Assembly (NCBI GenBank): GCA_964036295.1
Contig: OZ038473.1
Coordinates: 3,007,501-3,071,500, forward strand
Source of the DNA: Plumapathes pennacea
Lineage: Eukaryota > Cnidaria > Anthozoa > Antipatharia > Myriopathidae
DNA: 64,000 bases
Direction: 5' to 3'
This document shows, in pieces, positions 26,642 to 64,000 of this stretch. How positions within the stretch are numbered: the stretch's first letter is position 1; every line of letters starts with the position of its first letter. The notes below the pieces were generated by a model that made no database searches, was not told where the DNA came from, and saw nothing but the letters and a program-made list of their open reading frames with translations. The position numbers were made by a program, and so were the translations under genes.

Positions 26642-29600
26642 TTAGACCCACTTGTATATTCCGCTGTTAATGTTATTTTTTCCCAAATAAGAGTTTGTCA
26701 CTGCCAGATATTGCTCATCTTTGTACACAAACGGACACATTCCGCGCGCTGCACTGGTGTCCAGTTCTTGGTACTTTACGAACTGAGCTCCTGATGCCTT
26801 GTAAACCACCGAGTTTACAGCGTAACCCTGACTGTTTCCATGATGGTTCGCCAACACCAGGAACACGTCACCGCTTATCACTAAAGAGTTCCAGGACTTT
26901 CCTCCTCGAGAAAGAATAGATTGGAAAATCACGAATTTTGCGCCGTCCCACTTGTACAGGTGTGAGTTGGTGTTGTGAGAACTTCCTGAATAGTAGTTGG
27001 CCACAGCAAGGAAACTGTGTCCGCTGACCTCGAAATAGTGCAGATCACGGGCTCCACTTGTGGGCAGAGACTGGTGCTTAAGAAAATGGCCGCCTGACCA
27101 TCTGTAGACCGTTGACTGGACTTTGGGATCCTGTTGGGAACTGTAGTAGTTCGCAAACGCCAAATATGTCTGGTTTGCAATAACGAAAGCTTCGCATGCC
27201 CAGGCTCCCTCAGTTCGGATGTCCTGGAACTTGACAAACTTGCCTATGAACAAACGGCAATGAGTGTATATGAGAGTGGACCGTTTTCAATTTTTCAGTA
27301 TCACAAGTCAGTAAATCATTAACCATGTTACGAAACATTTACAAATTGAGAAAAAAAAATTTCTATTTGTTACTTGCCTCTTTGCCAAATGTAAATGTAC
27401 GAGTTGATAGAAGCTGAGCTATCATCATGGTAATTGGCGAAAACCAGGTAAGAATCGCCATTTTTGTTGAAGAACGTTACGTCACTGGCACCTTGGGTGG
27501 GGATTTCCTGGAAAGCCGAGAATAATTTGCCATTCCACTTATAAATGCGAGAATTAATCTTGTATGTTGATCCATTGTGGAGACTTGCGACTGCCAGATA
27601 GGGGATCCCCCCGATGACAAAGTGTTTGAGACCGTAAGCTCCCGTGGTATGTAGACTCTGGTAAGGAACCAAAGTATCTCCCTTCATTTTGAACACAGCA
27701 GACCGAGCCTTGTACTTGTCCTTGTCTCCGTTGTTGTTGGCAAAAACCACAAACAGGACCCCGTCTATCTCGAAAGCGCTCACATCAATTGCCCCTTTTG
27801 TTGGGACTATGTGACTCAATTCAAAGAAATGTAGTCCTTCTAAAATGTAACCCAAAACAATGGATAAGATGACTAATAGAAATCGTACGTCAGTTCATGA
27901 GTAAGAGAATCCTTAATTTTGCATTTCACGCTATCTGTCAGGCCCCGCGCGTCTGCATGAGCCCGGTTGGGAGCGAGATCGTATATAACTAAAGTTTCTT
28001 TTCCTAGGGGTTAGAAAACTTCAGGCGCCGTTTCCGTGAACCCAAAGTGAATCTTATTTGAGCGGAGATATCCAAAGTGGGGTCAACTAAGGTAAGCTTG
28101 GCCAAAATTGCTAACTCCGTTATTCAAAACTAAGTTTCGGTCATTCAAGCGGATATATCCTCACCCATATAGATGGTATCAAGCTTAACTCGGTGTTATC
28201 AGTTGCTGATCAGTTAACTTTTAATTAGACTGGTTGTTAAGGTAAAAATGTTAATAAATGTAGAAGAAGAGTGTATGATCAACTGGCGCCGACCTTGCTT
28301 TGGCCACATCTGAAGACAGTACGGTGAATACCCAAATCAGGCAATATGAAATGAAACAAAGATTCGTTGTGAGTTTAAAGACGTCGGAACTGTACATTGC
28401 CTTATTTAAATCCTGGTCGGTATGCTGCCAGCGATGATAAATGCAATGGTAAAGACTAATTTAACTTGACACAATTGTAAAACAACTGTACTATTAGTAC
28501 TAAGAGCAAACGGAGTTTTCTAAGAGGGGAAGTCTTAATTTTCTGAATTATAGAGCAAAGACCTTCGTACAAAGACAAACGTAGAGGTGCAGAAGTTTCA
28601 GTCTTGGCTGCAAAGTCTAAAGTCACCTGCATTATCTTCACGTTCTTGAGTGTCTTTGTCAAATTATCAACTTTCGCCTTCAAATCCGTTATCTTCGCTG
28701 AACACTGAGAGACCGAAAAGAAAAGATAAACTATTTTATATTTGTAGGGTTTCTGCAAACAAACGCATTTTCGATCTCCCCCCGCCCCATGTTATTTTCC
28801 TTCTGAGTCATCAGGCAATTTTTAATGTTCACTACCGACCTAATGCGTGTGCAAAAAAACACTTATAAACTTGACAGTAAAGAGAGGTTAGAATTGCACA
28901 CCTCAAGACTGCAGTTTCCCTCCAGTCCTCTCTCGCCTTGTACTCCTTGTTGTCCTTTTTCGCCCTGTGCTCCTTGCTGTCCTTTCTCGCCCTACACTCC
29001 TTGTCCTTTTTCTCCGTTAAGTCCTCGGTCTCCTTTGTCACCCTGGAAGATGCGACATCCAGTTGTTTTGTTGGTTTGATGGTTGGATTAATGACGACGG
29101 TCAAGGAACAAGGCCGCCTTTTCAGTAATCTGTTGCTTTGTTTTATTGGGTCGTGACGCCCTCGGGTTATTTATAATTGAATTTATAATTGAATTTCTCG
29201 TAATGTCGTGGGAGTTAAATATCAAACAAAAAAGTGTAAGTCATGACATTTACCTTTTGTCCATCTCTTCCATCCCTTCCATCTCTCCCTGTAGTAAAAA
29301 ATCAAAGTGTAATCCAACAATTTTAAAATCTCTATCTTCAATAATCCATGAATATCATACTATTTTTATTATAATTAACAATTATTCGCCTCGGTGTCGT
29401 TTCGGCGAGGTAAATATCCACCGCTATTCACCGACACTGAGGCGAATAATTGTTTTAGTATATACCACACAAGTTTAATAGCCAACTCCCAAATAGCCTA
29501 TTTACTTCCGACGAAAGTGGGCAAATTTTGGGTTCGCGCGCCATTTTGTTTTACCGGAAGCCGCCGGGAGGTGAATAGTACTTGATATTCCGAGATTGAG

Positions 29601-30530
29601 GAGCCAATCAGAGCGCTCGATTCACTTGTATGTATATACTAATCATAATTATAATATGGCTAGAGTGGGAGACTGTCTACTCACCGTCACGCCCGCAACA
29701 TAAGGCCTTCCCGGAACAACCAAAGTTCTGTGCTGCTTTATTTGGCCCCTGGTAAATAATGAAAACTCAACAACATAAATGAAATATTCATGGTAAAGAT
29801 AGGGCTAACGGTTGCATTGGGAAGGAGTGCCGACGGAAAAGAAATATTCCAAGCGTAAGAAAACTCCATACAAGTCGGTTTAGTATCGCTTAATTTACCA
29901 TCTACCGTTCCAATATAATTTCTTTGTCAACAGACTGATAGCTGACAGGAGTAAACAGAAAATCTATTAGCATATAGATGATACGTTGCTTGTCATTCAA
30001 CACTCTGAAAACACCAAAACAGGACGAAACAGTAGTGAGGCAGCCGAGACTACGAACCATGCGCGATATTAGTTGAGCAAACCTGTTGTTTCAACATTAC
30101 GATGTTACAGGAAAAGTGGCGCTGTTAGCCAATTCATTATTTTTGTTTATCTAGAAACGAGTAAAAAATTCCGGCTTAGGTTGGTTCCCAACACAAAAAA
30201 CGCAATAAATAAATAGATTAAAAAATTAAAAAGCACTGGCAAGTAGCACTTTTGGGTCAAATAGATTTTATTTTACCCTCAAACGAGTCGGATGCAAGTG
30301 GGTTGGTATTCATCTTTTGACTTTTCTCGGCCCTAAACTTGGCGGATCAAGGAGTTTCGGTGCGCGCGTAACTAAGGCTGTGGTTAAGAGGCCCCCTGTA
30401 ATTATACCAGATCATTTAACTGGCCGGGATCTTTTGTACTCACCAAATTAGCCAGGGTTTTACTCTCCTTGGCGCACAAAACACTTGAAAACAGCACCGA
30501 CAAGATCAGTAGCAGTAACTTGGTCGACAT
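26642..30530 (-). CDS. Array copy 1: secreted collagen/coiled-coil/EAR-propeller gene, with in-frame stop
   Basis: Exons in transcript order: 30530-30444 (signal peptide), 29748-29685 (Cys cluster), 29288-29254 (GRD repeats), 29042-28902 (collagen), 28704-28627 (coiled coil), 28309-28294 (predicted 16-nt microexon), 27839-27378 (EAR repeats 1-3), 27243-26642 (EAR repeats 4-7, TAA stop). All phases agree and would give 494 residues. However, codon 17 of the collagen exon is TAG (28994-28992) where sisters read CAG. The collagen exon has phase 0 on both sides, so skipping it would restore a shorter protein. The copy may therefore be a pseudogene or alternatively spliced. The intron before EAR repeat 4 begins with GC. 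This copy lies tail-to-tail with the ferlin. Automated pipelines may call it TSPEAR-like because of the EAR repeats, but it lacks the laminin G domain. Confidence 0.75.
28294..28309 (-). other. Predicted 16-nt microexon (copy 1; equivalents in copies 2-5)
   Basis: The coiled-coil exon ends in phase 0, but the first EAR exon needs one extra base to stay in frame. Between them a conserved segment, ATGTGGCCAAAGCAAG, is preceded by a good acceptor (ctgtcttcag) and followed by gt. Its 16 nt supply exactly the missing phase and add MWPKQ. The same segment and frame work at 37317-37302, 43765-43750, 50004-49989 and 56758-56743. The donor context (gtcggc, gttggc or gttagc) is weak, so this is an inference from frame and conservation. 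Confidence 0.6.
29375..29643. mobile_element. Intronic palindromic MITE, copy 1 (also 38378-38689, 44890-45199, 51173-51479)
   Basis: In copies 2-4 it contains the palindrome attcgcctcagtgtcgg to its reverse complement around a gagccgtttcggcgag centre, followed by about 200 bp ending tgtatatactaat. Copy 1 has lost part of the left arm. Copy 5 has no element: its sequence at about 57,840 passes straight from ttattataat to cataattata. Confidence 0.65.
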
Positions 30531-30582
30531 GTTAACGCCGGCTCTGACGAGACCAATTTGACTTACTTCCTCAAATCCGTCC

Positions 30583-30590
30583 GATTTATA
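30583..30590 (-). promoter_or_regulatory. TATA-like box of array copy 1 (also copies 3, 4, 5)
   Basis: TATAAATC on the minus strand lies about 53-60 nt upstream of the signal-peptide ATG. The same octamer is at 46142-46135, 52409-52402 and 58779-58772. In copy 2 the position (39634-39627) reads TATGAATC. The short distance to ATG suggests a brief 5' UTR. Confidence 0.45.
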
Positions 30591-30909
30591 GGCACAGCCG
30601 CGCTCAAGTTTCCTGGTTACGTGACTTATCAGTTCAATCAGGGCTCTTCAGTAGACTCAATAGTTTGTTGAACATAAACAGTGTTTGTTTTAGCTCCATA
30701 GATTTGAACAGTGAAAGTCTTTGCGGAAATCTGGAGCTTTCTCTGTCATTTATTTTATTTCCGGGATTAGTTTGAAGTGCTGACGACTCCACAACCTGAA
30801 ATGCAGGCGCTCTAATTTGCCTGAAACGAGAGGGAACGCCCGTTTAAGAAAACAATAAAAAAACGCGCTGTAAATGCAAAAGTTAGTGGACATCTGATTG
30901 GCCAATAGA

Positions 30910-31495
30910 CACATGCTGTTCGTAGAGCTGAAGGCTGTCTAGTTATTGTCACGTGGTGCGCAAACAACGATTATTTCTGACGGGTAGATTTTGGAAATAC
31001 ATATTAGTGCGGTCTAGATGCTAATTTAGGGATGCACAAAACAAAGGTTATGTTTATTAAAATGTGCAGACACACTGTTTATAGAGCTGAAGGCTCTGTC
31101 TTGTTACTGTCACGTGGTGCGCAAACGATTATTTCTGACGGGTAGAATGCGGAAATGCATATTAGTGCGGTCTAGATGCTATTTAGGGATACACAAAACA
31201 AAGGTTATGTTTATTAAAATGTGCAGACACGCTGTTTATAGAGCTGAAGGCTGTGTAGTTACTGCCACGTGGTGCGGAAACAACGGTTATTTCTGATAGG
31301 TAGAATGCGATATGCATATTTAGTGAGGTTTTGCTGTTCATAGAACTGAGGACTGTCTAGATACTGTAATGTGATACACAAACAATCTTATTTTCAATGA
31401 ATTATGCGGAATCTAGATGCTGCCCAGTGATACACAAACAAAGGCTATGTTTGTTAAATTATGGAGACCCGTTGTGTTGAGAGCTTAAGAGGCTG
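30910..31495. repeat. Upstream ~160-bp tandem repeats with CACGTG motifs, copy 1
   Basis: Three to four imperfect units, each running from tagagctgaaggct through CACGTGgtgcg, tatttctgacgggtag, gcggtctagatgct and aaaggttatgtttatt. CACGTG occurs at 30950, 31111 and 31266. The block lies about 400 nt upstream of the signal-peptide exon. A 60-residue open frame through it is identical in several copies but is part of the repeat. Confidence 0.7.
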
Positions 31496-34400: not shown

Positions 34401-34804
34401 ACTAAAATTCCGTAATTGATCGGTATTTGAGCTCCCTGAAGTTTACTTGTCTCTTCCGGGCTCCTTGAGGCATGAAACAAGTTTTTATTTTAAATTATTT
34501 AGGTTTTTCCTTTCCTCCGCTGTATGCACGGCTTTTGTGAGCAATTTGTCAATTTAGAGAAAAATGCTCGACCAACATTTGCAGGAAAACCGTTATAGAC
34601 AAGTTTTGTTTTCACAGCCCTGTAGGGTAAGGTTCAGACTTTCCTGTAGTGTTACTGGCATGGTATAATTTTCCCTGCAATTTGAGAAAAGTGGTCTTCA
34701 AAATTACCAATTTTCGGGTTGTCACGTGAACGTCTTTACATGGGGTTGATTAGCGCCATGGTGTGCGAATAGTTTGATGAAATATTGCTTGAATTTCCTA
34801 AAAA
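31491..34804. mobile_element. Large foldback element (~3.3 kb) upstream of copy 1
   Basis: Left arm 31779-32686 is the reverse complement of 33930-34803, and inner arms 33451-33575 pair with 33794-33914. The left arm carries about 765 extra bases (32687-33450) not present on the right. The element replaces roughly 900 bp found between copies 2-5. A 67-residue open frame occurs in both arms (32402-32199 and 34181-34384) and is not recognisable as a known protein. No transposase was seen. Confidence 0.7.
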
Positions 34805-35620: not shown

Positions 35621-38600
35621 TTAGACCCACTTGTATATTCCACTGTTAATGTTATAGTTTGGTTCCAAGTACGAATTTGTTACGGCCAGGTAATGCTCAT
35701 CTTGGTACACAAATGGACACATTCCGCGTGCTGCACTGGTGTCCAGTTCTTGGTACTTTACGAACTGAGCTCCTGACGCCTTGTAAATCACTGAGTTTAC
35801 AGCGTGCTTCTGACTGTCTCCATAAGTGTTTGCCAACACCAGGAACACGTCACTGCTTATCACCAAAGACTGCCAGGAAATTCCCCCTCGAGAAAGAATA
35901 GATTGGAAAATCACAAATTTTGCGCCGTCCCACTTGTACAGGTGTGAGTTAGTGTTGTAAACACCTGAATAGAAGTTGGCCACAGCAAGGAAACTGTGTC
36001 CGCTGGCCTCGAAATAGTGCAGATCACGGGCTCCACTTGTAGGCAGAGACTGGTGCTTAACAAAATGGCCGCCTGACCATTTGTAGACCACTGACTGGAC
36101 TTTGTACTTCTGTTGGGAATTGTAGTAGTTCGCAAACGCCAAATATGTCTGGTTTGCAATAACGAAAGTTTCACATGCCCAGACTCCCTCAGTTCGGATG
36201 TCCTGGAACTTGACAAACTTGTCTTTGGATTTAAATGAGAGAAAATTGTGTTAATCGTTTTTGCAGGAAGTAGTTAAGATGAGTAAATATGAGCGTAAAC
36301 CGTTTTCAATTTTTCAGTATCACAAGTCACTAAATCATTAACCATAATACAAAACATTTGCAATTTGAGAAAACAAATTACACTTTCTATTTGTTACTTG
36401 CCTCTTTGCCAAATGTAAATGTATGAGTAGATAGAACGTGAGCTATCACCAAGGTAATTGGCGAAAACCAGGTAAGAATCGCCATTTTTCTTGAAAAACG
36501 TTACGTCAATGGCACCTTGGGTGGGGATTTCCTGGAAAACCGAGAATAATTTGCCATTCCACTTGTAAATGCGAGAATTAATCTTGTATGTTGATCCATC
36601 GTAAAGACTTGCGACTGCCAGATAGGTGATCCCCCGGATGACAAAGTGTTTGAGAGCGAGGGCACCCGTGGTATGTAGACTCTGGTAATGAACCAAAGTA
36701 TCTCCCTTCATCTTGAACACATTAGAGGGAGCCTTTTGCTTCTCCTTGTCTCCGTAGTAGTTGGCAAAAACCACAAACAGGATACCGTCTATCTCAAAAG
36801 CGCTGACATCAGTTGCCCCTTTTGTTGGGACTTTATGACTCAATTCAAAGAAATGTAGTCCTGCCCCTAGATGAGGTGAATAATAGAAATCGTACGTCAG
36901 TTAGTGAGTAAGAGATTCCATAATTTTGCATTTCCCGCTCTCTGTCAGGCCCCGCGCGTCTACACGAGCCCGGTTGGGAGCGAGATCGTATATAACTAAA
37001 GTTTCTTTTCCTAGGAGTTGGAAAACTTCAGCCGTTTCCGTGAACCCAAAGTGGGTTTTATTAGAGCGGAGATATCCAACGTGGGATCAACTAAGGTAAG
37101 ATTGGCAAAAATTGCTCACTCCGTTATTCAAAACTAAGTTTCGGTCATTTAATTAAGCGGATAAATCCTCACCTATCTAGATGGTATCAAGCTTAACTCA
37201 GTGTTATTAGTTGCTGATCAGTTAATTTCTAATTAGACTGGTTGTTAAGGTAAAAATGTTAATAAATGTAGAAGAAGAGTGTATGATCAACTGGCGCCGA
37301 CCTTGCTTTGGCCACATCTGAAGACAGTGCGGTGAATACCCAAATCAGGCAATATGAAATGAAACAAAGATTCGTTGTGAGTTTAAAGACGTCGGAACTG
37401 TACATTGCCTTATTTAAATCCTGGTCGGTGTGCTGCCAGCGATGATAAATGCAATGGTAAAGACTAATTTAACTTGACACAATTGTAAAACAACTGTACT
37501 ATTAGTACTAAGAGCAAACGGAGTTTTCTAAGAGGGGAAGTCTTAATTTTCTGAATTATAGAGCAAAGACCTTCGTACAAAGACAAACGTACAGGTAGAG
37601 ACGTTTTAGTGTTGGCTGCAAAGTCTGAAGTCACCTGCATTACCTTCACGTTCTTGAGTGTCTTTGTCAAATTATCAACTTTCGCCTTCAAATCCGTTAT
37701 CTTCGCTGAACACTGAAAGACCGAAAAGAAAAGATAAGCTATTTTATATTTGTAGGGTTTCTGCAAACAAACGCATTTTCTCCCCCGCCCCATGTTATTT
37801 TCCTTCTGAGTCATCAGGCAATTTTTAATGTTCACTACCGACCTAATGCGTGTGCAAAGAAAACATACTTATAAACTTGACAGTAAAGAGAGGTTAGAAT
37901 TGCACACCTCAAGACTGCAGTTTCCCTCCAGTCCTCTCTCGCCTTGTACTCCTTGTTGTCCTTTTTCGCCCTGTGCTCCTTGCTGTCCTTTCTCGCTCTG
38001 TACTCCTTGTCCTTTTTCTCCGTTAAGTCCTCGGTCTCCTTTGTCACCCTGCAAGATGCGACATCCAGTTGTTTTCTTGGTTTGATGGTTGGATTGATGA
38101 CGACGGTCAAGGAACAAGGCCGCCTTTTCAGTAATCTGTTGCTTTGTTTTATTGGGTCGTGACGCTCTCGGGTTATTTATAATTGAATTTATAATTGAAT
38201 TTCTCGTAATGTTCTGGGAGTTAAATAACAAACAAAAAAGTGTAAGTCATGACATTTACCTTTTGTCCATCTCTTCCATCCCTTCCATCTCTCCCTGTAG
38301 TAAAAAATCAAAGTGTAATCCAACAATTTTAAAATCTCTGTCTTCAATAATCCATGAATATCATACTATTTTTATTATAATTAACAATATTATTCGCCTC
38401 AGTGTCGGTGAATAGCAGTGGATATTTACCGAGCCGTTTCGGCGAGGTAAATATCCACCGCTATTCACCGACACTGAGGCGAATAATTGTTTTAGTATAT
38501 ACCACACAAGTTTAATAGCCAACTCCCAAATAGCCTATTTACTTCCGACGAAAGTGGGCAAATTTTGGGTTCGCGCGCCATTTTGTTTTACCGGAAGCCG

Positions 38601-39574
38601 CCGGGAGGTGAATAGTACTTGATATTCCGAGATTGAGGAGCCAATCAGAGCGCGCGAAAAGCACTATTCACTTGTATGTATATACTAATCATAATTATAA
38701 TATGGCTAGAGTGGGAGACTGTGTCTACTCACCGTCACGTCCGCAACACAAGGCCTTTCCCGAACAACCAAAGTTCTGTGCTGCTTCATTTGGCCCCTGG
38801 TAAATAATGAAACCTCAACAACATAAATGAAATATTCATGGTAAAGATAGGGCTAACGGTTGCATTGGGAAGGAGTGCCGACGGAAAAGAAATATTCCAA
38901 GCGTAAGAAAACTCCATACAAGTCGGTTTAGTATCGCTTAATTTACCATCTACCGTTCCAATATAATTTCTTTGTCAACAGACTGATAACTGACAGGAGT
39001 AAACAGAAAATCTATTAGCATATAGATGATACGTTGCTTGTCAGTCAACACTCTGAAAACACCAAAACAGGACGGAACAGTAGTGAGGCAGCCGAGACTA
39101 CGAACCATGCGCGATATTAGTTGAGCAAACCTGTTGTTTCAACATTACGATGTTACAGGAAAAGTGGCGCTGTTAGCCAATTCATTACTTTTGTTTGTCT
39201 AGAAATGAGTAAAAAATTCCGGCTTAGGTTGGTTCCCAACACAAAAAACGCAATAAATAAATAAAAAAATAAAAAAGCACGGGCAAGTAGCACTTTTGGG
39301 TCAAATAGATTTTATTTTTCCCTCAAACGAGTCGGATGCAAGTGGGTTGGTATTCATCTTTTGACTTTTCTCGGCCCTAAACTTGGCGGATCAAGGAGTT
39401 TCGGCGCGCGCGCAACTAAGACTGTGGTTAAGAGGCCCCCCGTAATTATACCAGATCATTTAACTGGCCGGGATCTTTTGTACTCACCAAATTAGCCAAA
39501 GTTTTACTCTCCTTGGCGCACAAAACACTTGAAAACAGTACCGACATAACCAGTAGCAGGAACTTGGTCGACAT
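35621..39574 (-). CDS. Array copy 2: secreted collagen/coiled-coil/EAR-propeller protein
   Basis: Exons: 39574-39488, 38796-38733, 38294-38260, 38048-37908, 37712-37635, 37317-37302 (predicted microexon), 36866-36402, 36222-35621. The joined frame is open for 495 residues. The N terminus MSTKFLLLVMSVLFSSVLCA is a signal peptide. The second exon has three cysteines (GCSG, LCC). The collagen part is GRD repeats, then GDK/GEK/GQQ triplets, with one triplet shortened to GQ and one Gly replaced by Ser (VQSEKG). The coiled coil is ITDLKAKVDNLTKTLKNVK. The EAR part has seven repeats, each with a hydrophobic VFANYY-like core and ending in IYKW or VYKW. The propeller's second half is nearly identical to copy 5. 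The TATA-like box of the other copies is changed here. Function is unknown; an extracellular recognition or matrix role is inferred from architecture. Confidence 0.85.
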
Positions 39575-40325: not shown

Positions 40326-40334
40326 TTTGTATAG

Positions 40335-42083: not shown

Positions 42084-45000
42084 TTAGACCCACTTATATA
42101 TTCCGCTGTCAATGTTATGTTTTCTCAAATAAGAGTTTGTCACGGCCAGGTATTGCTCGTCTTGGTACACAAATGGACACATTCCGCGCGCTGCACTGGT
42201 GTCCAGTTCTTGGTACTTTACGAACTCAGCTCCTGACGCCTTGTAAATCACTGAGTTTACAGCGTGCTTCTGACTGTCTCCATAAGTGTTTGCCAACACC
42301 AGGAACACGTCACCGCTTATCACCAAAGACTTCCAGGACATTCCTCCTCGAGAAGGAATGGATTGGAAAACCACGAATTTTGCGCCGTCCCACTTGTACA
42401 GGTGTGAGTTGGTGTTGTAAGCACTTCCTGAATAGTAGTTGGCAGCAGCAAGGAAACTTTGTCCGCTGACCTCGAAATAGTGCAGATCACGGGCTGCACT
42501 TGTAGGCAGAGACTGGTGCTTAACAAAATGGCCGCCTGACCATCTATAGACCACTGACTGGACTTTGAACTTCTGTTGGGAATTGTAGTAGTTCGCAAAC
42601 GCCAAATATGTCTGGTTTGCAATAACGAAAGCTTCGCACCCCGTAACTTGCTCAGTTCGGATGTCCTGGAACTTGACAAACTTGTCTTTGGATTCAAATG
42701 AGAGAAAATTGTGTTGATCATACAAGGGCCGTTTTCAATATTTCAGCATCACAAGTCAGTAAACCATCACCCATGTTACAAGACATTTACAGTTTCACAA
42801 AACATTGTTTACACTGTTCATTTGTTACTTACCTCTTTGCCAAATGTAAATGTATGAGTTGATAGAGTGTGAGCCACCATCGTAGCAATTGGCAAAAGCT
42901 AGATACGAATTCCCATTTATGTTGAAGAACGTTACGTCAGCAGCACCTTGGGTGGGGATTTCCTGGAAAACCGAGAATAATTTGCCATTCCACTTGTAAA
43001 TGTGAGAATTAGTCTTGTAAGTTGATCCATTGTAGTTATTTGCGACTGCCAGATAGGTGATGCCCCCGATCACAAAATGTTTGAGACCGTAAGCCCCCGT
43101 GGTATGTAGACTCTGGTAAGGAACCAAAGTACCTCCCTTCATTTTGAACACATCAGACGGAGCCTTGAACTTGTCCTTATCTCCATGGAAGTTAGCAAAA
43201 ACCACAAACAGGACACCGTCTATCTCGAAAGCGCTGACATCAAATGCCCCTTTTGTTGGAACTTTGTGACTCAATTCAAAGAAATGTAGTCCTGCTTCTG
43301 AAATGCAATAAAACAATGGATAAGATGACTAATAGAAATCGTACGTCAGTTCGTAAGTAAGAGAATTCTCACTTTTGCATTTCAAGCTCTCTGTCAGGCC
43401 CCGCGCGTCTGCATGAGCCCGGTTGGGAGCGAGATCTTATATAACTAAAGTTTCTTTTCCTAGGGGTTGGAAAACTTCAGCCGTTTCCGTGAACCCAAAG
43501 TGAGTCTTATTCGAGCGGAGATATCCAACGTGGGATCAACTAAGGTAAGCTTGGCCAAAATTGCTAACTCCGTTGTTCAGAACTAAGTTTTCGGTCATTT
43601 AATTAAGCGGATAAATCCACACCTATCTAGATGGTATCAAGCTTAACTCAGTGTTATTAGTTGCTGATCAGTTAATTTCTAATTAGACTGGTTGTTAAGG
43701 TATATGCTAATAGATGTAGAAGGAGAATGTATAATCAACTTGCGCCAACCTTGCTTTGGCCACATCTGAAGACGGTACGTGAATACACAAATCAGGCAAA
43801 TATGAAATGAAACAAAGATTCGTTGTGAGTTTAAAGACGTCGGAACTGCACGTTGCCTTGTGTAAATTCTGGTCGGTATGCTGCCAGCGACGATAAATGC
43901 AATAGTAAAGACTAATTTAACTTGACACAATTGTAAAACAACTGTACTATTAGTACTAAGAGCAAACAGAGTTTTCTAAGAGGAGAAGTCTTAATTTTCT
44001 GAATTATAGAGCAAAGACCTTCGTACAAAGACAAACGTAGAGGTGCAGAAGTTTCAGTCTTGGCTGCAAAGTCTAAAGTCACCTGCATTATCTTCACGTT
44101 CTTGAGTGTCTTTGTCAAATTATCAACTTTCGCCTTCAAATCCGTTATCTTCGCTGAACACTGAGAGACCGAAAAGAAAAGATAAACTATTTTATATTTG
44201 TAGGGTTTCCGCAAACAAACGCATTTTCTCTCCCCGCCCCATGTTATTTTCCTCCTAAGTCATCAGGCAATTTTTAATGTTCACTACCGACCTAATGCGT
44301 GTGCAAAGAAAACATACTTATATAATGACAATAACAATAATTACAAAGTGACTAAGTTGAAAGTATAGAGAGGTAGAATGACACACCTCAAGACTGCAGT
44401 TTCCCTCCAGTCCTTTTTCGCCCTGTGCTCCTATTTGTCCTTTTTCGCCCTGTGCTCCTTGTTGTCCTTTTTCGCCCTGTGCTCCCTGCTGTCCTTTTTC
44501 GCCCTGTACTCCTTGTTGTCCTTTTTCTCCGTTAAGTCCTCGGTCTCCTTTGTCACCCTGTAAGATGCGACATCCTGTTGTTTTGCTGGTTTGATGGTTG
44601 GATTAATGACGACGGTCAAGGAACAAGGCCGCCTTTTCAGTAATCTGTTGCTTTGTTTTGTTGGGTCGTGACGCCCCCGGGTTATTTATAATTGAATTTA
44701 TAATTGAATTTCTCGTAATGTTGTGGGAGTTAAAATAACAAACAAAAATGTGTAAGTCATGGCATCTACCTTTTGTCCATCTCTTCCATCCCTTCCATCT
44801 CTACCTGTATTAAAAGTCAAGGTGTAATCCAACAATTTTAAAATCTCTATCTTCAATAATCCATGAATATCATACTATTTTTATTATAATTAACAATTAT
44901 TCGCCTCAGTGTCGGTGAATAGCAGTGGATATTTTACCGAGCCGTTTTGGCGAGGTAAATATCCACCGCTATTCACCGACACTGAGGCGAATAATTGTTT

Positions 45001-46072
45001 TAGTATATACCACACAAGTTTAATAGCCAACTCCCAAATAGCTATTTTATTTCCGACGAAAGTGGGCAAATTTTGGGTTCGCGCGCCATTTTGTTTTACT
45101 GGAAGCCGCCGGGAGGTGAATAGTGTACTTGATATTCCGAGATTGACGAGCCAATCAGAGCGCGCGAAAAGCACTATTCACTTGTATGTATATACTAATC
45201 ATAATTATAATATGGCTAGAGTGAGAGACTGTGTCTACTCACCGTCACGTCCGCAACACAAGGCCTTTCCGGAACAACCAAAGTTCTGTGCTGCTTCATT
45301 TGGCCCCTGGCGAATAACAAAAACTCAACAACATAAATGAAATATTCATGGTAAAGATAGGGCTAACGGTTGCATTGGGAAGGAGTGCCGACGGAAAAGA
45401 AAATACTCCAAACGTAAGAAAACTCCATACAAGTCGGTTTAGTATCGCTTAATTTACCATCTACCGTTCCAATATAATTTCTTTGTCAACAGACTGATAG
45501 CTGACAGGAGTAAACAGAAAATCTATTAGCATATAGATGATACATTGCTTGTCAGTCAACACTCTGAAAACACCAAAACAGGACAGAACAGTAGTGCGGC
45601 AGCCGAAACTACGCACCATGCGCGATATTAGTTGAGCAAACCTGTTGCTTTAACATGATGTTACAGAAAAAGGGGCGCTGTTAGTTAATTCAATATCTTT
45701 GTTTATCTAGAAATGAGTAAAAAATTCCGGTTAAAGTTGGTTCCCAACACAAAAAAACGCATTAAATAAATAAAAAAACACGGCAAGTAGCACTTTTGGG
45801 TCAAAAAAATTTTATTTTTCCCTCAAACGAGTCGGATGCAAGTGGGTGTATTCATCTTTTGACTTTTCTCGGCCCTAAACTTGGCGGGTCAAGGAGTTTC
45901 GGCGCGCGCGCAGCTAAGGCTGTGGTTAAGAGGCCCCCCGTAATTATACCAGATCATTTAACTGGCCGGGATCTTTTGTACTCACCAAATTAGCCAGAGT
46001 TTTACTCTCCTTGGCGCACAAAACACTTGAAAACTGTACCGACATAATCAGTAGCAGGAACTTGGTCGACAT
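42084..46072 (-). CDS. Array copy 3: secreted collagen/coiled-coil/EAR-propeller protein
   Basis: Exons: 46072-45986, 45306-45243, 44804-44770, 44557-44387, 44160-44083, 43765-43750 (predicted microexon), 43297-42833, 42685-42084. The joined frame is open for 505 residues. The signal peptide contains one Gln in its core (SVQFSSVLCA). The collagen exon is 57 codons, longer than in copies 1 and 2, through extra GEKGQQGAQ units. This copy alone has GT rather than GC at the start of the intron after EAR repeat 3 (42832-42831), which confirms where that exon ends in all copies. The propeller carries CEAFVIANQTYLAFANYY and LYKWDGAKFVVFQ repeats like its sisters. Confidence 0.87.
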
Positions 46073-48595: not shown

Positions 48596-51500
48596 TTAGA
48601 CCCACTTATATATTCCGCTGTCAATGTTATTTTTTTTGTCACGGCCAGAGTTTGTCACGGCCAGGTATTGCTCGTCTTGGTACACAAATGGACACATTCC
48701 GCGTGCTGCACTGGTGTCCAGTTCTTGGTACTTTACGAACTGAGCTCCTGACGCCTTGTAAACCACCGAGTTTACAGCGTAACCCTGACTGTATCCATGA
48801 TGGTTTGCGAGCACCAGGAACACGTCACCGCTTATCACCAAAGACTGCCAGGACATTGCCCCTCGAGAAAGAATGGATTGGAAAACCACGAATTTTGCGC
48901 CGTCCCACTTGTACAGGTGTGAGTTGGTGTTGTGAGAACTTCCTGAATAGTAGTTGGCAGCAGCAAGGAAACTGTGTCCGCTGACCTCAAAATAGTGAAC
49001 ACCCTGTGCCCTACTTGTGGGTAGATACTGGTGCTTAACAAAATGGCCGCCTGACCATTTGTAGACCACTGACTGGACTTTGCCCTTCTGTTGGGAATTA
49101 TAGTGGTTCGCAAACGCCAAATATGTCTGGTTTTCAATAAAGAAAGCCTCACATCCCATAGCTCCCTCGGTTCGGATGTCCTGGAACTTGACAAACTTGT
49201 CTATGAACAAACGGCAATGAGTAAATATGAGTATGGACCGTTTTAAGTTTTTCAGTATCACAAGTCAGTAAATCGTTAACCATGTTACAAAACATTTAAA
49301 ATTTGAGAAAAAAATTACACTTTTCCTTTGTTACTTGCCTTGTTGCCAAATGTAAATGTATGAGTTGATAGAAGTTGAGCTATCATCATGGTAATTGGCG
49401 AAAACCAGGTAAGAATTGCCATTTTTGTTAAAGAACGTTACGTCACTGGCACCTTGGGTGGGGATTTCCTGGAAAACCGAGAATAATTTGCCATTCCACT
49501 TGTAAATGCGAGAATTAATCTTGTATGTTGATCCATCGTAGTAACTTGCGACTGCCAGATAGGGGATCCCCCCGATGACAAAGTGTTTGAGACCGTAAGC
49601 TCCCGTGGTATGTAGACTCTGGTAAGGAACCAAAGTATCTCCCTTCATCTTGAACACATCAGACGGAGCCTTGTGCTTCTCCTTGTCTCCGTGGTAGTTG
49701 GCAAAAACAACAAACAGGACACCGTCTATCTCGAAAGCGCTGACATCAATTACCCCTTTTGTTGGGACGTTATGGCTTAATTCAAAAAAATGTAGTCCTG
49801 CTTCTGAAATGTAACAAAACAATGGATAATATGACTAATAGAAATCGTACGTCAGTTCGTGAGTGAGAGATTCCTTAATTTTGCATTTCACGCTCTCTGT
49901 CAGGCCCAGCGCGTCCACACAAACCCTGGTGGGAGCGAGATCGTATATAACTACAGTTTCTTTTCCTATGTGATCAACTTGCGCTAACCTTGCTTTGGCC
50001 ACATCTGAAGACGGAACGGTGAATACCCAAATCAGGCAATATGAAATGAAACAAAGGGTCGTGAGTTTAAAGCCGTCTGAACTTTGTATTGCCTTGTGTA
50101 AATCCTGGTCGGTATGCTGCCAGAGATGAATGCCATGGTAAAGACTAATAAACTTAACACAAATTTAGAACAATTGTTACATTGGAACTAGGATCAAAGC
50201 GGGGAGTATTCTAAGCGGACTAGTTTTAATGTTTTGAATTATAGAGCAAAGACCTTCATTGTTCGTGCAAACGTAGTAGTGAACGTATATGTAGAGACGT
50301 TTTAGTGTTGGCTGCAAAGTCTGAAGTCACCGCCTGCATTACCTTCACGTTCTTGAGTGTCTTTGTCAAATTATCAACTTTCGCCTTCAAATCCGTTATC
50401 TTCGCTGAACACTGAGAGACCGAAAAGAAAAGATAAACTATTTTATATTTGTAGGGTTTCTGCAAACAAACGCATTTTCGATCTCCCCCCGCCCCATGTT
50501 ATTTTCCTTCTGAGTCATCAGGCAATTTTTAATGTTCACTACCGACCTAATGCGTGTGCAAAGAAAACATACTTATATAACGACAATAACAATAATTACA
50601 AAGTGACTAAGTTGAAAGTATAGAGAGGTAGAATGACACACCTCAAGACTGCAGTTTCCCTCCAGTCCTTTTTCGCCCTGTGCTCCTATTTGTCCTTTTT
50701 CGCCCTGTGCTCCTTGTTGTCCTTTTTCGCCCTGTGCTCCTTGTTGTCCTTTTTCGCCCTGTGCTCCCTGCTGTCCTTTTTCGCCCTGTACTCCTTGTTG
50801 TCCTTTTTCTCCGTTAAGTCCTCGGTCTCCTTTGTCACCCTGTAAGATGCGACATCCTGTTGTTTTGCTGGTTTGATGGTTGGATTAATGACAACGGTCA
50901 AGGAACAAGGCCGCCTTTTCAGTAATCTGTTGCTTTGTTTTGTTGGGTCGTGACGCCCCCGGGTTATTTATAATTGAATTTATAATTGAATTTCTCGTAA
51001 TGTTGTGGGAGTTAAAATAACAAACAAAAATGTGTAAGTCATGGCATCTACCTTTTGTCCATCTCTTCCATCCCTTCCATCTCTACCTGTATTAAAAGTC
51101 AAGGTGTAATCCAACAATTTTAAAATCTCTATCTTCAATAATCCATGAATATCATACTATTTTTATTATAATTAACAATTATTCGCCTCAGTGTCGGTGA
51201 ATAGTAGTGGATATTTTACCGAGCCGTTTCGGCGAGGTAAATATCCACCGCTATTCACCGACACTGAGGCGAATAATTGCTTTAGTATATACCACACAAG
51301 TTTAATAGCCAACTCCCAAATAGCTATTTTATTTCCGACGAAAGTGGGCAAATTTTGGGTTCGCGCGCCATTTTGTTTTACCGGAAGCCGCCGGGAGGTG
51401 AATAGTACTTGATATTCCGAGATTGAGGAGCCAATCAGAGCGCGCGAAAAGCACTATTCACTTGTATGTATATACTAATCATAATTATAATATGGCTAGA

Positions 51501-52349
51501 GTGGGAGACTGTTTTCTCACCGTCACGTCCGCAACACAAGGCCTTTCCGGAGCAACCAAAGTTCTGTGCTGCTTCATTTGGCCCCTGGCAAATAACAAAA
51601 ACTCAACAACATAAATGAAATATTCATGGTAAAGATAGGGCTAACGGTTGCATTGGGAAGGAGTGCCGACGGAAAAGAAAATACTCCAAACGTAAGAAAA
51701 CTCCATACAAGTCGGTTTAGTATCGCTTACTTTACCATCTACCGTTCCAATATAATTTCTTTGTCAACAGACTGATAGCTGACAGGAGTAAACAGAAAAT
51801 CTATTAGCATATAGATGATACGTTGCTTGTCAGTCAACACTCTGAAAACACCAAAACAGGACGGAACAGTAGTGAGGCAGCCGAAACTACGCACCATGCG
51901 CGATATTAGTTGAGCAAACCTGTTGCTTTAACATGATGTTACAGAAAAAGGGGCGCTGTTAGTTAATTCAATATCTTTGTTTATCTAGAAATGAGTAAAA
52001 AATTCCGGTTAAAGTTGGTTCCCAACACAAAAAAACGCATTAAATAAATTAAAAAACACGGCAAGTAGCACTTTTGGGTAAAAAAAATTTATTTTTCCCT
52101 CAAACGAGTCGGATGCAAGTGGGTGTATTCATCTTTTGACTTTTCTCGGCCCTAAACTTGGCGGGTCAAGGAGTTTCGGCGCGCGCGCAGCTAAGGCTGT
52201 GGTTAAGAGGCCCCCCGTAATTATACCAGATCATTTAACTGGCCGGGATCTTTTGTACTCACCAAATTAGCCAGAGTTTTACTCTCCTTGGCGCACAAAA
52301 CACTTGAAAACTGTACCGACATAATCAGTAGAAGGAACTTGGTCGACAT
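48596..52349 (-). CDS. Array copy 4: secreted collagen/coiled-coil/EAR-propeller protein, longest collagen stalk
   Basis: Exons: 52349-52263, 51584-51521, 51086-51052, 50839-50642, 50411-50331, 50004-49989 (predicted microexon), 49803-49339, 49200-48596. The frame is open for 516 residues. The collagen exon is 66 codons, the longest in the array, with four GEKGQ-type units in a row. The coiled-coil exon gains one codon (GCG, Ala) at its donor: the sequence reads CAGGCG before gtgact, where sisters have CAG before gtgact. The last repeat also has one extra residue (NSGRDKKNNIDSG). Much of the intron between exons 5 and 7 is shorter than in the other copies (about 180 nt after the microexon). 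Confidence 0.85.
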
Positions 52350-55062: not shown

Positions 55063-58000
55063 TTAGACCCACTTGTATATTCCACTGTTAATGTTATAGT
55101 TTGGTTCCAAGTACGAATTTGTTACGGCCAGGTAATGCTCATCTTGGTACACAAATGGACACATTCCGCGTGCTGCACTGGTGTCCAGTTCTTGGTACTT
55201 TACGAACTGAGCTCCTGACGCCTTGTAAATCACTGAGTTTACAGCTTGCTTCTGACTGTCTCCATAAGTGTTTGCCAACACCAGGAACACGTCACTGCTT
55301 ATCACCAAAGACTGCCAGGAAATTCCCCCTCGAGAAAGAATAGATTGGAAAATCACGAATTTTGCGCCGTCCCACTTGTACAGGTGTGAGTTAGTGTTGT
55401 AAACACCTGAATAGAAGTTGGCCACAGCAAGGAAACTGTGTCCGCTGGCCTCGAAATAGTGCAGATCACGGGCTCCACTTGTAGGCAGAGACTGGTGCTT
55501 AACAAAATGGCCGCCTGACCATTTGTAGACCACTGACTGGACTTTGTACTTCTGTTGGGAATTGTAGTAGTTCGCAAACGCCAAATATGTCTGGTTTGCA
55601 ATAACGAAAGTTTCACATGCCCAGACTCCCTCAGTTCGGATGTCCTGGAACTTGACAAACTTGTCTTTGGATTTAAATGAGAGAAAATTGTGTTAATCGT
55701 TTTTGCAGGAAGTAATTAAGATGAGTAAATATGAGCGTAAACCGTTTTCAATTTTTCAGTATCACAAGTCACTAAATCATTAACCATAATACAAAACATT
55801 TGCAATTTGAGAAAACAAATTACACTTTCTATTTGTTACTTGCCTCTTCGCCAAATGTAAATGTATGAGTTGATAGAAGTTGAGCTACTACCAAGGTAAT
55901 TGGCGAAAACCAGGTAAGAATCGCCATTTTTCTTGAAAAACGTTACGTCAATGGCACCTTGGGTGGGGATTTCCTGGAAAACCGAGAATAGTTTGCCATT
56001 CCACTTGTAAATGCGAGAATTAATCTTGTATGTTGATCCATCGTAAAGACTTGCGACTGCCAAATAGGTGATCCCCCGGATGACAAAGTGTTTGAGAGCG
56101 AGGGCACCCGTGGTATGTAGACTCTGGTAATGAACCAAAGTATCTCCCTTCATCTTGAACACATTAGAAGGAGCCTTTTGCTTCTCCTTGTCTCCGTAGT
56201 AGTTGGCAAAAACCACAAACAGGACACCGTCTATCTCAAAAGCGCTGACATCAGTTGCCCCTTTTGTTGGGACCTTATGACTTAATTCAAAGAAATGTAG
56301 TCCTGCCCCTGGATGAGGTGAATAATAGAAATCGTGCGTCAGTTAGTAAGTAAGAGATTCCATAATTTTGCATTTCCCGCACTCTGTCAAGCCCCGCGCG
56401 TCTACACGAGCCCGGTTGGGAGCGAGATCGTATATAACTAAAGTTTCTTTTCCTAGGAGTTGGAAAACTTCAGCCGTTTCCGTGAACCCAAAGTGGGTTT
56501 TATTAGAGCGGAGATATCCAACGTGGGATCAACTAAGGTAAGATTGGCAAAAATTGCTAACTCCGTTATTCAAAACTAAGTTTCGGTCATTTAATTAAGC
56601 GGATAAATCCACACCCATCTAGATGGTATCCAGCTTAACTCAGTGTTATTAGTTGCTTATCAATTAGTTTTTAATTTAGACTAGTTGTTAAGTTATATGC
56701 TAATAGATGTAGAAGGAGAATGTATAATCAACTTGCGCCAACCTTGCTTTGGCCACATCTGAAGACGGTACGGTGAATACCCAAATCAGGCAATATGAAA
56801 TGAAACAAAGATTTGTTGTGAGTTTAAAGGCGTCGGAACTGCACATTTCCTTGTGTAAATTCTGGTCGGTATGCTGCCAGTAATGATAAATGCAATGGTA
56901 AAGACTAATTTAACTTGACACAATTGTACAATTGTACTATTAGTACTAAGAGCAAACGGAGTTTTCTAAGAGGAGAAGTCTTAATTTTCTGAATTATAGA
57001 GCAAAGATCTTCGTACAAAGACAAACGTAGAGGTGCAGAAGTTTCAGTCTTGGCTGCAAAGTCTAAAGTCACCTGCATTATCTTCACGTTCTTGAGTGTC
57101 TTTGTCAAATTATCAACTTTCGCCTTCAAATCCGTTATCTTCGCTGAACACTGAGAGACCGAAAAGAAAAGATAAACTATTTTATATTTGTAGGGTTTCT
57201 GCAAACAAACGCATTTTCTCTCCCCGCCCCATGTTATTTTCCTCCTAAGTCATCAGGCAATTTTTAATGTTCACTACCGACCTAATGCGTGTGCAAAGAA
57301 AACATACTTATATAATGACAATAACTATAATTACAAAGTGACTAACTTGACAGTATAGAGAGGTAGAATGACACACCTCAAGACTACAGTTTCCCTCCAG
57401 TCCTCGCTCGCCTTGTACTCCTTGCTGCCCTTTTTCGCCCTGTGCTCCTTGTTGTCCTTTTTCACCCTGTACTCCTTGCTGTCCTTTTTCTCTGTTAAGT
57501 CCTCGGTCTCCTTTGTCACCCTGCAAGATGCGACATCCAGTTGTCTCCTTGGTTTGATGGTTGGATTAATGACGACGGTCAAGGAACAAGGCCGCCTTTT
57601 CAGTAATCTGTTGCTTTGTTTGTTGGGTCGTGACGCCCTCGGGTTATTTATAATTGAATTGCTCGTAATGTTGTTGGAGTTAAAATAACAAACAAAAATG
57701 TGTAAGTCATGGCATCTACCTTCTGTCCATCTCTTCCATCCCTTCCATCTCTACCTGTAGTAAAAAAATCAAAGTGTAATCCAACAATTTTAAAATCTCT
57801 ATCTTCTATAATCCATGAATATTATACTATTTTTATTATAATCATAATTATAATATGGCTAGAGTGGGAGACTGTCTACTCACCGTCACGCCCGCAACAT
57901 AAGGCCTTCCCGGAGCATCCATAGTTCTGTGCTGCTTCATTTGGCCCCTGGTAAATAACAAAAACAACAACATAAATGAAATATTCATGGTAAAGAACGA

Positions 58001-58719
58001 GCAAAAAAAAATTGGTTGCATTGGGAAGGAGTGCCGACGGAAAAGAAATACTCCAAACGTAAGAAAACTCCATACAAGTCGGTTTAGTATCGCTTACTTT
58101 ACCATCTACCGTTCCAATATAATTTCTTTGTCAACAGACTGATAGCTGACAGGAGTAAACAGAAAATCTATTAGCATTTAGATGATACGTTGCTTGTCAG
58201 TCAACACTCTGAAAACACCAAAACAGGACGGAACAGTAGTGAGGCAGCCGAAACTACGCACCATGCGCGATATTAGTTGAGCAAACCTGTTGCTTTAACA
58301 TTACGATGTTACAGGAAAAGGGGCGCTGTTAGCCAATTCATTATTTTTGTTTGTCTAGAAATGAGTAAAAAATTCCGGCTAAAGTTGGTTCCCAACACAA
58401 AAAAACGCAATAAATAAAAAAACACGGGCAAGTAGCACTTTTGGGTCAAGTCAATTTTATTTTTCCCTCAAACGAGTCGGATGCAAGTGGGTTGGTATTC
58501 ATCTTTTGACTTTTCTCGGCCCTAAACTTGGCGGATCAAGGAGTTTCGGCGCGTGCGCAGCTAAGGCTGTGGTTAAGAAGCCCCCTGTAATTATACCAGA
58601 TCATTTAACTGGCCGGGATCTTTTGTACTCACCAAATTAGCCAGGGTTTTACTCTCCTTGGCGCACAAAACACTTGAAAACAGCACCGACAAGATCAGTA
58701 GCAGTAACTTGGTCGACAT
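55063..58719 (-). CDS. Array copy 5: secreted collagen/coiled-coil/EAR-propeller protein
   Basis: Exons: 58719-58633, 57947-57884, 57754-57720, 57520-57377, 57150-57073, 56758-56743 (predicted microexon), 56308-55844, 55664-55063. The frame is open for 496 residues. The signal peptide equals that of copy 1 (MSTKLLLLILSVLFSSVLCA). The collagen exon is 48 codons, with one Gly changed to Arg (LNREKG). EAR repeats 4-7 differ from copy 2 by about one residue over 173 (DSQKQAVN against DSQKHAVN), while the coiled-coil exon matches copies 1 and 3 rather than copy 2. The foldback MITE present in the long intron of copies 1-4 is absent here. Confidence 0.86.
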
Positions 58720-61502: not shown

Positions 61503-61737
61503 TGTAACAAGGCCTTGCAGGGAGGAATTAGCTTCTTGTGAGAGGTGCCTTGTCACAGTCCGGGATCTTTTATATTGAGTAGATCAGGACTAGCAGTCAG
61601 GACTCGTTGTCGTTTATTTTGGTCCGAAGACCTTCACCAACCGACTCTCAGGCAAAACTCCCCGTCAGAGGAAAGGACGCGAATACTAATATTGCTCTTA
61701 ACCAATAGTAGTTGGACAAGTCAAGTCCGGCTGGACA
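61503..61737. mobile_element. Possible solo LTR, inverted copy of 24745-24979
   Basis: Runs from TGTAACAAGGCCTTG to GGCTGGACA, the reverse complement of the ferlin-intron copy with a few differences. It lies about 220 bp downstream of the stop of copy 6, where the other array copies have no such sequence. Confidence 0.5.
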
Positions 61738-61954
61738 AAGAACAAAGTTTACAGGATATTAATTCTAACACCTCTGGACCTGTCTACTCATTTCATATTC
61801 TGTTTACTTTGCATCACAAGCAGAGTTCACACCTAGATCTTAGCAGCTGGCAAAACTAGATTTCAAAAGTTGCAAAGTGCCTTCCTTTTGCGTAAAACTG
61901 CTCCGTAACATAAGTAATAGCTAAAGCTTGCAACTGCCAACGAAGTGTCCTCGT

Positions 61955-64000
61955 TTAGACCCACTTGAAAATTCCGCTGTTAATATTATGTTTTGGTTCC
62001 AAGTACGAATTTGTCACGGCCAGGTATTGCTCATCTTGGTACACAAATGAACACATTCCGCGAGCTGCACTGGTGTCCAGTTCTTGGTACTTTACGAACT
62101 GAGCTCCTGACGCCTTGTAAACCACCGAGTTTACAGCGTACCTCTGACTGTCTCCAAGAGAGTTTCCCAACACCAGGAACACGTCACCGCTTATCACCAA
62201 AGATTGCCAGGATCTTCCTCCTCGAGAAGGAATAGATTGGAAAATCATGAAGTTTGCGCCGTCCCACTTGTACAGGTATGAGTTGATGTTAAAAGAACTT
62301 AGTCCTGAACGGAAGTTGGCCACAGCAAGGAAACTGTGTCCGCTGACCTCAAAATAGTGCAGAGCGTGGGCTCCACTAGTGGCCAGAGACTGATGCTCAA
62401 CGAAATGGCCGCCGGACCATCTGTAGACCACTGACTGGACTTTGTACTTCTGTTGGGAATTGTAGTTGTTCGCAAACGCCAAATATGTCTGGTTTGCAAT
62501 AACGAAGGCTTCACAGGCCACGGCTCGCTCAGTTCGGATGTCCTGGAACTTGACAAACTTGTCTTTGGATGAAAATAAGAAGAAATCATGTCAATCGATT
62601 TTGCTGGAAACAGTTTGGATGAGTAAATATGAGCATTAGTTTTCAATATTTCAGTGTTTGTTTTTTATCTCAAACTCTAGTGTTAGCTAGTGTTATTGCC
62701 CTCTCAGAATCACACGTCGTTTATTACCCATGTTACACAACATTTACAGTTTGGTAAAGAATTCTTTAAGGCCATTTCACACTGGACGCGTCGCGACACG
62801 CTGTAACTGCATGCGACAACGCGACAAAATTAGATCCCGGTCATTCCTTCAATCCGATTCACACCGGACGCGGCGCGACATTCGCTATGTCGCGCCGCGT
62901 CCGGTGTGAATCGGATTGAAGGAATGACCGGGACCTAATTTTGTCGCGTTGTCGCATGTAGTTACAGCGTGTCGCGACGCGTCCAGTGTGAAATGGCCTT
63001 TACACTTTGAGCTGATTGCATTGTAGTTTGATGTTCATTTACTTGCCTCGTTGCCAAATGTAAATGGATGAGTTGATGGAAGTTGAGCTATCATCAAAGT
63101 GATTGGCGAAAACCAGGTAAGAATTGCCATTTTTGTTGAAGAACGTTACGTCAGCAGCACCTTGGGTGGGGATTTCCTGGAAAACCGAGAATAATTTGCC
63201 ATTCCACTTGTAAATGCGAGAATTAATCTTGTATGTTGATCCATCGAAGAGACTTGCAACTGCCAGATAGGTGATCCCCTTGATGACAAAATGTTGGACA
63301 GCGTGAGCTCCTGTGGTCTGTAGACTCTGGTAAGGAACCAAAGTATCTCCCTTCATCTTGAACACATCGGACGGAGCCTTGTACTTGTTCTTCTCTCCAT
63401 AGAAGTTAGCAAAAACCACAAACAAGACACCGTCTATCTCGAAAGCGCTGACATCAATTGCCCCTTTTGTTGGGATTTTATGACTTAATTCAAAGAAATG
63501 TAGTCCTGCCCCTGGATTAGGTGAATAATAGAAATCGTACGTCAGTTAGTGAGTAAGAGATTCCATACTTTTGCATTTCACGCTTTTTGTCAGGCCCCGC
63601 GCGTCTATGCGAGCCCGGTTGGGAGCCAGATTGTACATAACTAAAGTTTCTTTTTCTAAGGGTAGGAAAACTTCAGCCGTTTCCGTGAACCCAAAGTGAG
63701 TCTTATTCGAGCAGGATCAACTAAGGTAAGCTTGGCCAAAATTGCTAACTCCGTTATTCAAAACTAAGTTTTGGTCATTTAATTAAGCGGATAAATCCTC
63801 ACCCATCTAGATGGTATCCAGCTTAACTCAGTGTTATTAATTGCTTATCAATTAGTTTTTAATTAGACTAGTTGTTAAGGTATGTATTAATAAATATATA
63901 TATATATATATGAAGAATATATGATCAACTTGCGCCAACCTTGCTTTGGCCACATTTGAAGATGGTACGGTGAAATACCCAAATCAGGCAAATATGAAAT
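61955..64000 (-). CDS. Array copy 6 (partial): EAR-propeller exons, 5' part beyond window
   Basis: Two exons are complete: 63511-63047 (EAR repeats 1-3) and 62562-61955 (EAR repeats 4-7 with TAA stop). They join in frame through an intron that begins with GC and contains a 233-bp near-perfect palindrome. The sequence is more diverged than in the other copies (FINIQ-type changes such as SGLSSFNINSYLYKWDGANF and a two-residue insertion). The predicted microexon would be 63955-63940, but its acceptor reads AA instead of AG. The signal, collagen and coiled-coil exons should lie just past position 64,000. Confidence 0.8.
62768..63000. mobile_element. 233-bp near-perfect palindrome in copy 6 intron
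   Basis: Arms run from aaggccatttcacactgg to its reverse complement ccagtgtgaaatggcctt, with the centre at acattcgctatgt. It is GC-rich and contains tcgcgac and cgcggcgcg motifs. It lies between EAR exons 63511-63047 and 62562-61955, so it would form a long hairpin in the pre-mRNA. Other copies lack it. Confidence 0.75.

Follow-up and report, generated by a model that had tools for sequence, protein, structure and literature searches.

We analysed a 64,000-nucleotide window of a black coral (Antipatharia) genome (assembly G000, 290 Mb in 24 contigs; contig C12, positions 3007501-3071500) that holds a tandem array of genes with a collagen stalk and a head of seven EAR (EPTP) repeats. Head variation in these genes concentrates on three positions of the repeat, 13, 31 and 32, which form a predicted rim; the same concentration is seen independently in the window copies and in 42 relatives, and is new here.

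A tandem array of collagen-EAR genes

Six copies (A-F) lie inside the window, all on the minus strand and 6.4-9.0 kb apart, and two further members, G and H, lie 11.7-24.1 kb ahead of the window start. Across the genome, exon 7 of copy D matched eight places and exon 8 matched nine, the ninth being a truncated EAR4-7 fragment (G000:C1:37333586-37334101) whose best match is copy C together with part of the 3' flank of C. The spliced models of all copies have eight exons with constant phases, in the order signal peptide (called by eye), a 64-nucleotide exon with C-x5-CC, two Gly-X-Y exons, a coil exon, a micro-exon of 16 or 19 nucleotides that puts the reading frame back in register, EAR repeats 1-3 and EAR repeats 4-7. 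The copies, with exons numbered e1 to e8, and examples of the main exons are as follows (window coordinates).

26642..30530, minus strand: copy A, with its stop-codon end at 26642; e1 30444-30530, e2 29685-29748, e3 29254-29288, e4 28902-29042 (premature TAG in the collagen exon), e5 28627-28704, e6 28294-28309, e7 27378-27839, e8 26642-27243
35621..39574, minus strand: copy B; e1 39488-39574, e2 38733-38796, e3 38260-38294, e4 37908-38048 (collagen register break), e5 37635-37712, e6 37302-37317, e7 36402-36866, e8 35621-36222
42084..46072, minus strand: copy C, intact; e1 45986-46072, e2 45243-45306, e3 44770-44804, e4 44387-44557, e5 44083-44160, e6 43750-43765, e7 42833-43297, e8 42084-42685
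48596..52349, minus strand: copy D, frame open throughout, longest stalk (26 triplets); e1 52263-52349, e2 51521-51584, e3 51052-51086, e4 50642-50839, e5 50334-50411 (donor GC, or GT 3 bases on), e6 49989-50004, e7 49339-49803, e8 48596-49200
55063..58719, minus strand: copy E, frame open throughout; e1 58633-58719, e2 57884-57947, e3 57720-57754, e4 57377-57520 (one Gly-to-Arg in Gly-X-Y), e5 57073-57150, e6 56743-56758, e7 55844-56308, e8 55063-55664
61955..64000, minus strand: copy F, part inside the window; e6 63940-63955 (acceptor AG lost, CAA in place of CAG), e7 63047-63511, e8 61955-62562; e1-e5 at 64289-65922, past the window end
50642..50839, minus strand: main collagen exon (e4 of D), Cys on either side of the stalk
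50334..50411, minus strand: coil exon (e5 of D), three heptads
49339..49803, minus strand: exon 7 of D with EAR repeats 1-3, in which A-F and G/H have diverged
48596..49200, minus strand: exon 8 (D), EAR repeats 4-7, apparently homogenised between A-F and G/H, with exon-sharp borders

The exon model is based on phase, splice sites and the presence of the same exon edges in copies G and H; because the sequence flanking the G and H exons is strongly diverged from A-F, the shared edges are good evidence for it. Copies C, D, E, G and H keep an open frame and have usable splice sites. The intron 7 donor is GC (AG/GCAAGT) in five of the eight copies (A, B, D, E and F) and GT in C, G and H. The exon-7 donor first placed in the splice model was wrong, and the GC donor mends the frame. 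At exon 5, a donor directly after AAG was dropped and a CAG site 9 bases on preferred after comparison with G and H, and an open frame at 49835-50164 in D was set aside as an extra exon, since the other copies carry an insertion of about 270 bases at that point.

A Pfam search of the spliced C and H models found Collagen at 41.6 and 30.8 bits respectively (cut-off 27.2) and EPTP in seven stretches each at 272.7 and 271.6 bits (cut-off 21). It found no other domain in these two models, including C-type lectin, fibrinogen, C1q, leucine-rich repeats, laminin-G/thrombospondin-type and galectin, and inspection of all eight models found no proline repeats. The stalk runs to 13-26 Gly-X-Y triplets across copies, uninterrupted in C, D, F, G and H and broken in A, B and E; its pairwise ratio of nonsynonymous to synonymous rates (omega) among A-F is 0.07-0.35. 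The coil exon encodes three heptads with I, L, V, L, L, V at the a/d positions; copy G has V, L, V, L, L, T and is identical to C at four of six a/d positions versus three of 12 others. The original prediction for this DNA, of at least six tandem copies with this order of parts and these heptads, thus stands, including the Collagen and EPTP matches that it had proposed as a check.

Head variation concentrates on positions 13, 31 and 32

Repeats were numbered as T9-x-G11-A12-x13...F18...Y25-L26..A29-N30-x31-x32. The A-F heads are 82-98% identical, and their mean entropy peaks at position 13 (1.35 bits), 31 (1.10) and 32 (1.06), with the next highest at 0.45. Together the three positions sum to 3.50 bits, which no top-three sum reached in 20000 within-repeat permutations, and they supply 12 of the 30 most variable of the 352 head columns. 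Among the eight copies, position 13 varies in six of seven repeats (repeat 7 has Arg throughout), position 31 in all seven (six in A-F) and position 32 in six (repeat 4 has Tyr throughout). Seven different 21-residue rims are found among the eight copies, B and E being alike.

Since positions 13, 31 and 32 were first noticed in the window data, they were tested as preset positions on relatives. A protein search with copy C (8000 candidates scored) gave 928 matches, and we hand-picked 42 sequences from the best 120, which were listed. The preset positions sum to 5.76 bits in these relatives, compared with 2.15 +/- 0.41 under permutation (0/20000). The order of variability is 13, 31, 14, 32; all seven position-13 columns fall within the top 10 of 354 head columns, and positions 13, 31 and 32 account for 13 of the 30 most variable columns. 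Loop positions 34-38, past strand B, are also variable.

Two control families lack this pattern. Nine vertebrate TSPEAR or TSPEAR-like proteins (of 28 matches, with P0252, P0257, P0258, P0250 and P0265 left out; 69-100% identical to the reference, six mapped repeats) show no rim excess, with a sum of 1.18 against 1.05 +/- 0.37 (6969/20000) and peaks at 19 and 22 instead. Positions 13, 31 and 32 are invariant in eight EPTP proteins of about 400 amino acids with a Tat-like N-terminus, which we read as prokaryotic (85-100% identical, six repeats). These results support the earlier suggestion of a diversifying family, and more strongly than the letters alone had allowed.

Predicted fold and the receptor contacts of LGI1

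The head is predicted to be a seven-bladed EAR (EPTP) beta-propeller. An AlphaFold2 model of the relative P0022, built on an 18-sequence alignment, has a mean predicted local distance difference test score (pLDDT) of 72.9 and a predicted template modelling score of 0.68. Residues 16-144 (linker and collagen) fall below a pLDDT of 50, and the head blocks are mostly at 84-97 with dips to 66. The modelled head has 28 strands (7 x 4), and a strand precedes the first A strand. The EPTP domain of LGI1 is described as a solved seven-bladed propeller in which an N-terminal strand completes blade 7 (PMC5906670), and the strand order of the model, which is of a relative of the window proteins, matches it. 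In all seven repeats of P0022, position 13 falls on the second residue of strand A and positions 31-32 are the first two residues past strand B, which places all three at the same edge of the A-B hairpin.

LGI1 is the EPTP relative with a solved structure matched by copy C, and accounts for all four matches obtained with the head of a relative. In the structural account of LGI1, the aromatic residues of ADAM22 are held at the inner channel rim by F256, V284, L302, Y433 and M477 (PMC5906670). A hidden Markov model (HMM) of the repeat places Y433 and M477 at position 13; ungapped extension of a weak HMM match places V284 at 13 and L302 at 31; and F256, in a repeat without an HMM match, was hand-aligned to 32. 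Four hydrogen-bonding LGI1 residues fall near 10-12 and at 33, mostly by hand. Because the five hydrophobic contacts align to 13, 31 and 32, the variable positions of the collagen-EAR family are the binding positions in LGI1, and the rim would be the binding site of collagen-EAR heads too.

Relatives in other corals

Collagen and EPTP occur together in nine of the 120 matches listed, the named ones being from Oculina patagonica and Porites lutea; the same domain order is found in these other corals. Three of the Oculina proteins have the same contig size (46,518,285), and two are tagged ACROYT_G005432 and G005443, which suggests that the Oculina genes are also clustered. In P0022, P0030, P0044 and P0083, a single open reading frame runs from the N-terminal leader through the last repeat on contigs of 1.9-3.6 kb. 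We took these contigs to be cDNA because the EPTP-only frames examined seem to start at the head exon; the claim that collagen and EAR share one transcript is to this extent supported, in relatives. A reading of the EPTP-only matches on long ENA contigs as bacterial was dropped: those examined have an exon-like border (..CSTGFHFFE) at their start and resemble coral genomic reading frames. No description of a collagen-EAR protein was found in the literature searched, which excluded subscription papers and preprints.

Probable exchange of exon 8 among copies

Between A-F and G/H, synonymous divergence (dS) is 1.25-1.50 in the stalk and 1.4 to saturated in exon 7, versus 0.17-0.29 in exon 8. High identity begins at the exon-8 acceptor and ends just past the stop codon, with flanks in G pairs down to 27-69%. 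The exon-7 tree sets G and H apart from A-F (support 100/100), and the exon-8 tree groups D with G and H (85/92). Judged from these comparisons, exon 8 (EAR4-7) is homogenised between the subclusters. Ectopic gene conversion of exon 8 fits best; the alternative is that strong constraint on synonymous sites keeps its dS low.

Surrounding sequence and other EAR loci

A ferlin gene adjoins the array on the plus strand (window 10841-24173; C2 at 10841-11152, Ferlin dsRNA-binding-like domain at 19279-19728, Ferlin C-terminus at 23850-24173). A long, microsatellite-like run of Asn codons stands in an open frame at 12269-12577. In the extra spacing between copies A and B (window 31700-34600) lies a repeat matched at least 91 times in the genome, with 40 of 127 candidates scored. 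Many of its matches occur in both orientations, as in a foldback-type mobile element, and it looks young because its best other copy is 99% identical. Elsewhere in the assembly, two EPTP loci 5 Mb apart (G000:C4:13104985-13106333 and 18280272-18281678) have equal scores at each of three repeats, as if recent duplicates. A one-exon EAR head of another family (G000:C2:11084309-11085442, a 378-amino-acid frame) is 53% identical to one ENA protein and at most 38% to the next; a scan of its 10-kb locus saw no collagen exon nearby. Contig C24 (17,711 bases) is mitochondrial, with COX1 split in pieces. The ND2 gene on it matches one record labelled Antipatharia at 99% identity over 97% of its length and another at 100% over 73%; further black coral matches are at 86-93%, and the best other named match, Relicanthus, is at 88% over 73%, which identifies the species as a black coral.

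Discussion

Collectins (SP-D, MBL), ficolins and C1q are built in the order Cys segment, Gly-X-Y stalk, neck and globular head. The array proteins appear alike in the order of their parts and are likely multivalent, but where those families carry C-type lectin, fibrinogen or C1q heads, the array head is an EAR propeller by the Pfam matches in C and H. They have the EPTP head in common with LGI1, the ligand of ADAM22/23, and their hypervariable positions are its hydrophobic receptor contacts; LGI1, however, is described with leucine-rich repeats (PMC3691968, PMC5906670) and has no collagen stalk, the reverse of the array proteins. TSPEAR likewise carries EPTP repeats in a secreted protein, but with a laminin-G/thrombospondin-type N-terminal domain and without hypervariability at positions 13, 31 and 32 in the nine proteins compared.

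We lean, by a modest degree, towards reading the array as secreted, multivalent, collagen-stalked binders with a diversified propeller rim, most likely recognising non-self or self surfaces. Three chains would probably be linked by the Gly-X-Y helix, its flanking cysteines and the short coil, giving each molecule three heads. The secreted trimer, or an oligomer of trimers, would display several propeller heads, each gripping its partner at the rim of the central channel, the surface that LGI1 uses on ADAM22. The stalk would give avidity and the rim specificity. Because the rim (positions 13, 31 and 32 in almost all blades) has diversified across paralogs and relatives while scaffold and stalk are more conserved, the proteins would be a set of multivalent binders with different specificities. 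Copies would arise by tandem duplication to form a repertoire, with the exon for blades 4-7 swapped among them.

Several results weigh against this reading, and some would suit a rim that is solvent-exposed, unused in the collagen-EAR family and hence drifting. A two-class codon model was fitted with sites 13, 14, 31 and 32 preset as the rim from the relatives (A-F unless stated). Its estimate for EAR1-3 favours recognition, omega being 3.5 for rim sites and 0.41 for the rest (p = 0.024 for the rim against 1, 0.00013 against equal). In EAR4-7 omega is 1.18 and 0.48 (p = 0.7 against 1, 0.046 against equal), or 0.92 and 0.49 with all eight copies (p = 0.81 and 0.092). For the whole head it is 1.9 and 0.46 (p = 0.056 against 1, 4.6e-5 against equal). 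As omega above 1 is significant in EAR1-3 alone, positive selection is supported there only. The synonymous rate at EAR4-7 rim sites is raised 2.3-2.8 fold, and pooled rim pN/pS (the nonsynonymous to synonymous ratio of differences) is 1.04 for A-F alone and falls to 0.84 with all eight copies; with omega in EAR4-7 and rim pN/pS both near 1, weak constraint on an exposed rim would fit these values. Recombination between copies breaks the codon model's assumption of a single tree, the permutation tests ignore the relatedness of the sequences, and the prokaryote-like control shows little divergence (mean 0.17 bits). Nor is the rim variable everywhere: in the window copies, repeat 7 is fixed at position 13 and repeat 4 at position 32. 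We nevertheless consider drift of an unused rim improbable, given the EAR1-3 estimate, the lower variability of most other head columns and the finding that the same positions are not the variable ones in the two control families.

The gene models raise objections of their own. Two of the eight copies (A and F) look damaged, and B and E carry stalk breaks. In the 10 relatives checked, a short Cys-containing segment joins collagen to head and a coil is present in none, compared with all eight black coral copies, so the coiled neck is not general to the family; of the collectin-like plan originally proposed, the order of parts holds and the neck does not hold family-wide. The stop in A, the lost acceptor in F and the near identity of B and E in exons 7 and 8 might even suggest that the collagen and EAR exons are separate genes, or that the array consists of decaying duplicates or an assembly artefact. 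This we judge very improbable: exon order and phases are alike in eight copies, the diverged G and H included, both parts lie in one continuous frame on the short contigs of relatives, five copies retain open frames with usable sites, and the stalks of B and E have diverged (dS 0.25).

A structural or adhesive role is unlikely in our view, though less so than the preceding two explanations. Here the collagen would anchor the protein in the mesoglea, proteinaceous skeleton or nematocyst, the propeller would link other matrix or cell-surface proteins, and copy number would reflect dosage. It has cnidarian precedent in nematogalectin, described as a signal peptide, conserved region, Gly-X-Y stretch and galectin head (PMC4195985), in minicollagens with about 15 Gly-X-Y repeats (PMC12549020) and in a TSPEAR-named protein reported from the red coral skeleton proteome (PMC7853314). 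Nematogalectin is, like the array proteins, a cnidarian Gly-X-Y protein with a signal peptide and a C-terminal binding head, but it is a nematocyst protein and its head is a galectin, which Pfam did not find in C or H; minicollagens are described as having proline repeats on either side of Gly-X-Y and a Cys-rich domain at each end (PMC4195985), and the array models lack proline repeats. A dosage or structural role, moreover, predicts neither variation at a single rim in most repeats of two sequence sets nor the absence of such variation from TSPEAR-type proteins.

For the collagen-stalked binders as we read them, immunity or self/non-self recognition would be the most likely use, and matrix adhesion or a nematocyst use is possible. 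Black corals are not known to calcify, so an aragonite skeleton would not be a use in this species. Coral tachylectin-2 homologues, which belong to a different propeller family and are not known to have a collagen stalk, offer a comparison. In Oculina they are reported to be highly variable, under positive selection and taken as immune (PMC2880987). More tentatively, and with somewhat less confidence than in recognition at large, we propose that the collagen-EAR proteins may form an anthozoan recognition system of its own, in which about 21 rim residues (three per blade over seven blades) would make up a variable binding site whose diversity comes from substitution and from swapping of the blade 4-7 exon cassette among tandem genes, for immunity or self/non-self recognition.

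A mapped variable surface is rare among coral recognition candidates. Because the variable residues are named, lie at one blade edge and coincide with the positions at which a relative of solved structure contacts its receptor, the idea that these proteins serve recognition is directly testable. If it is true, the collectin plan would have been reached in evolution with a quite different head.

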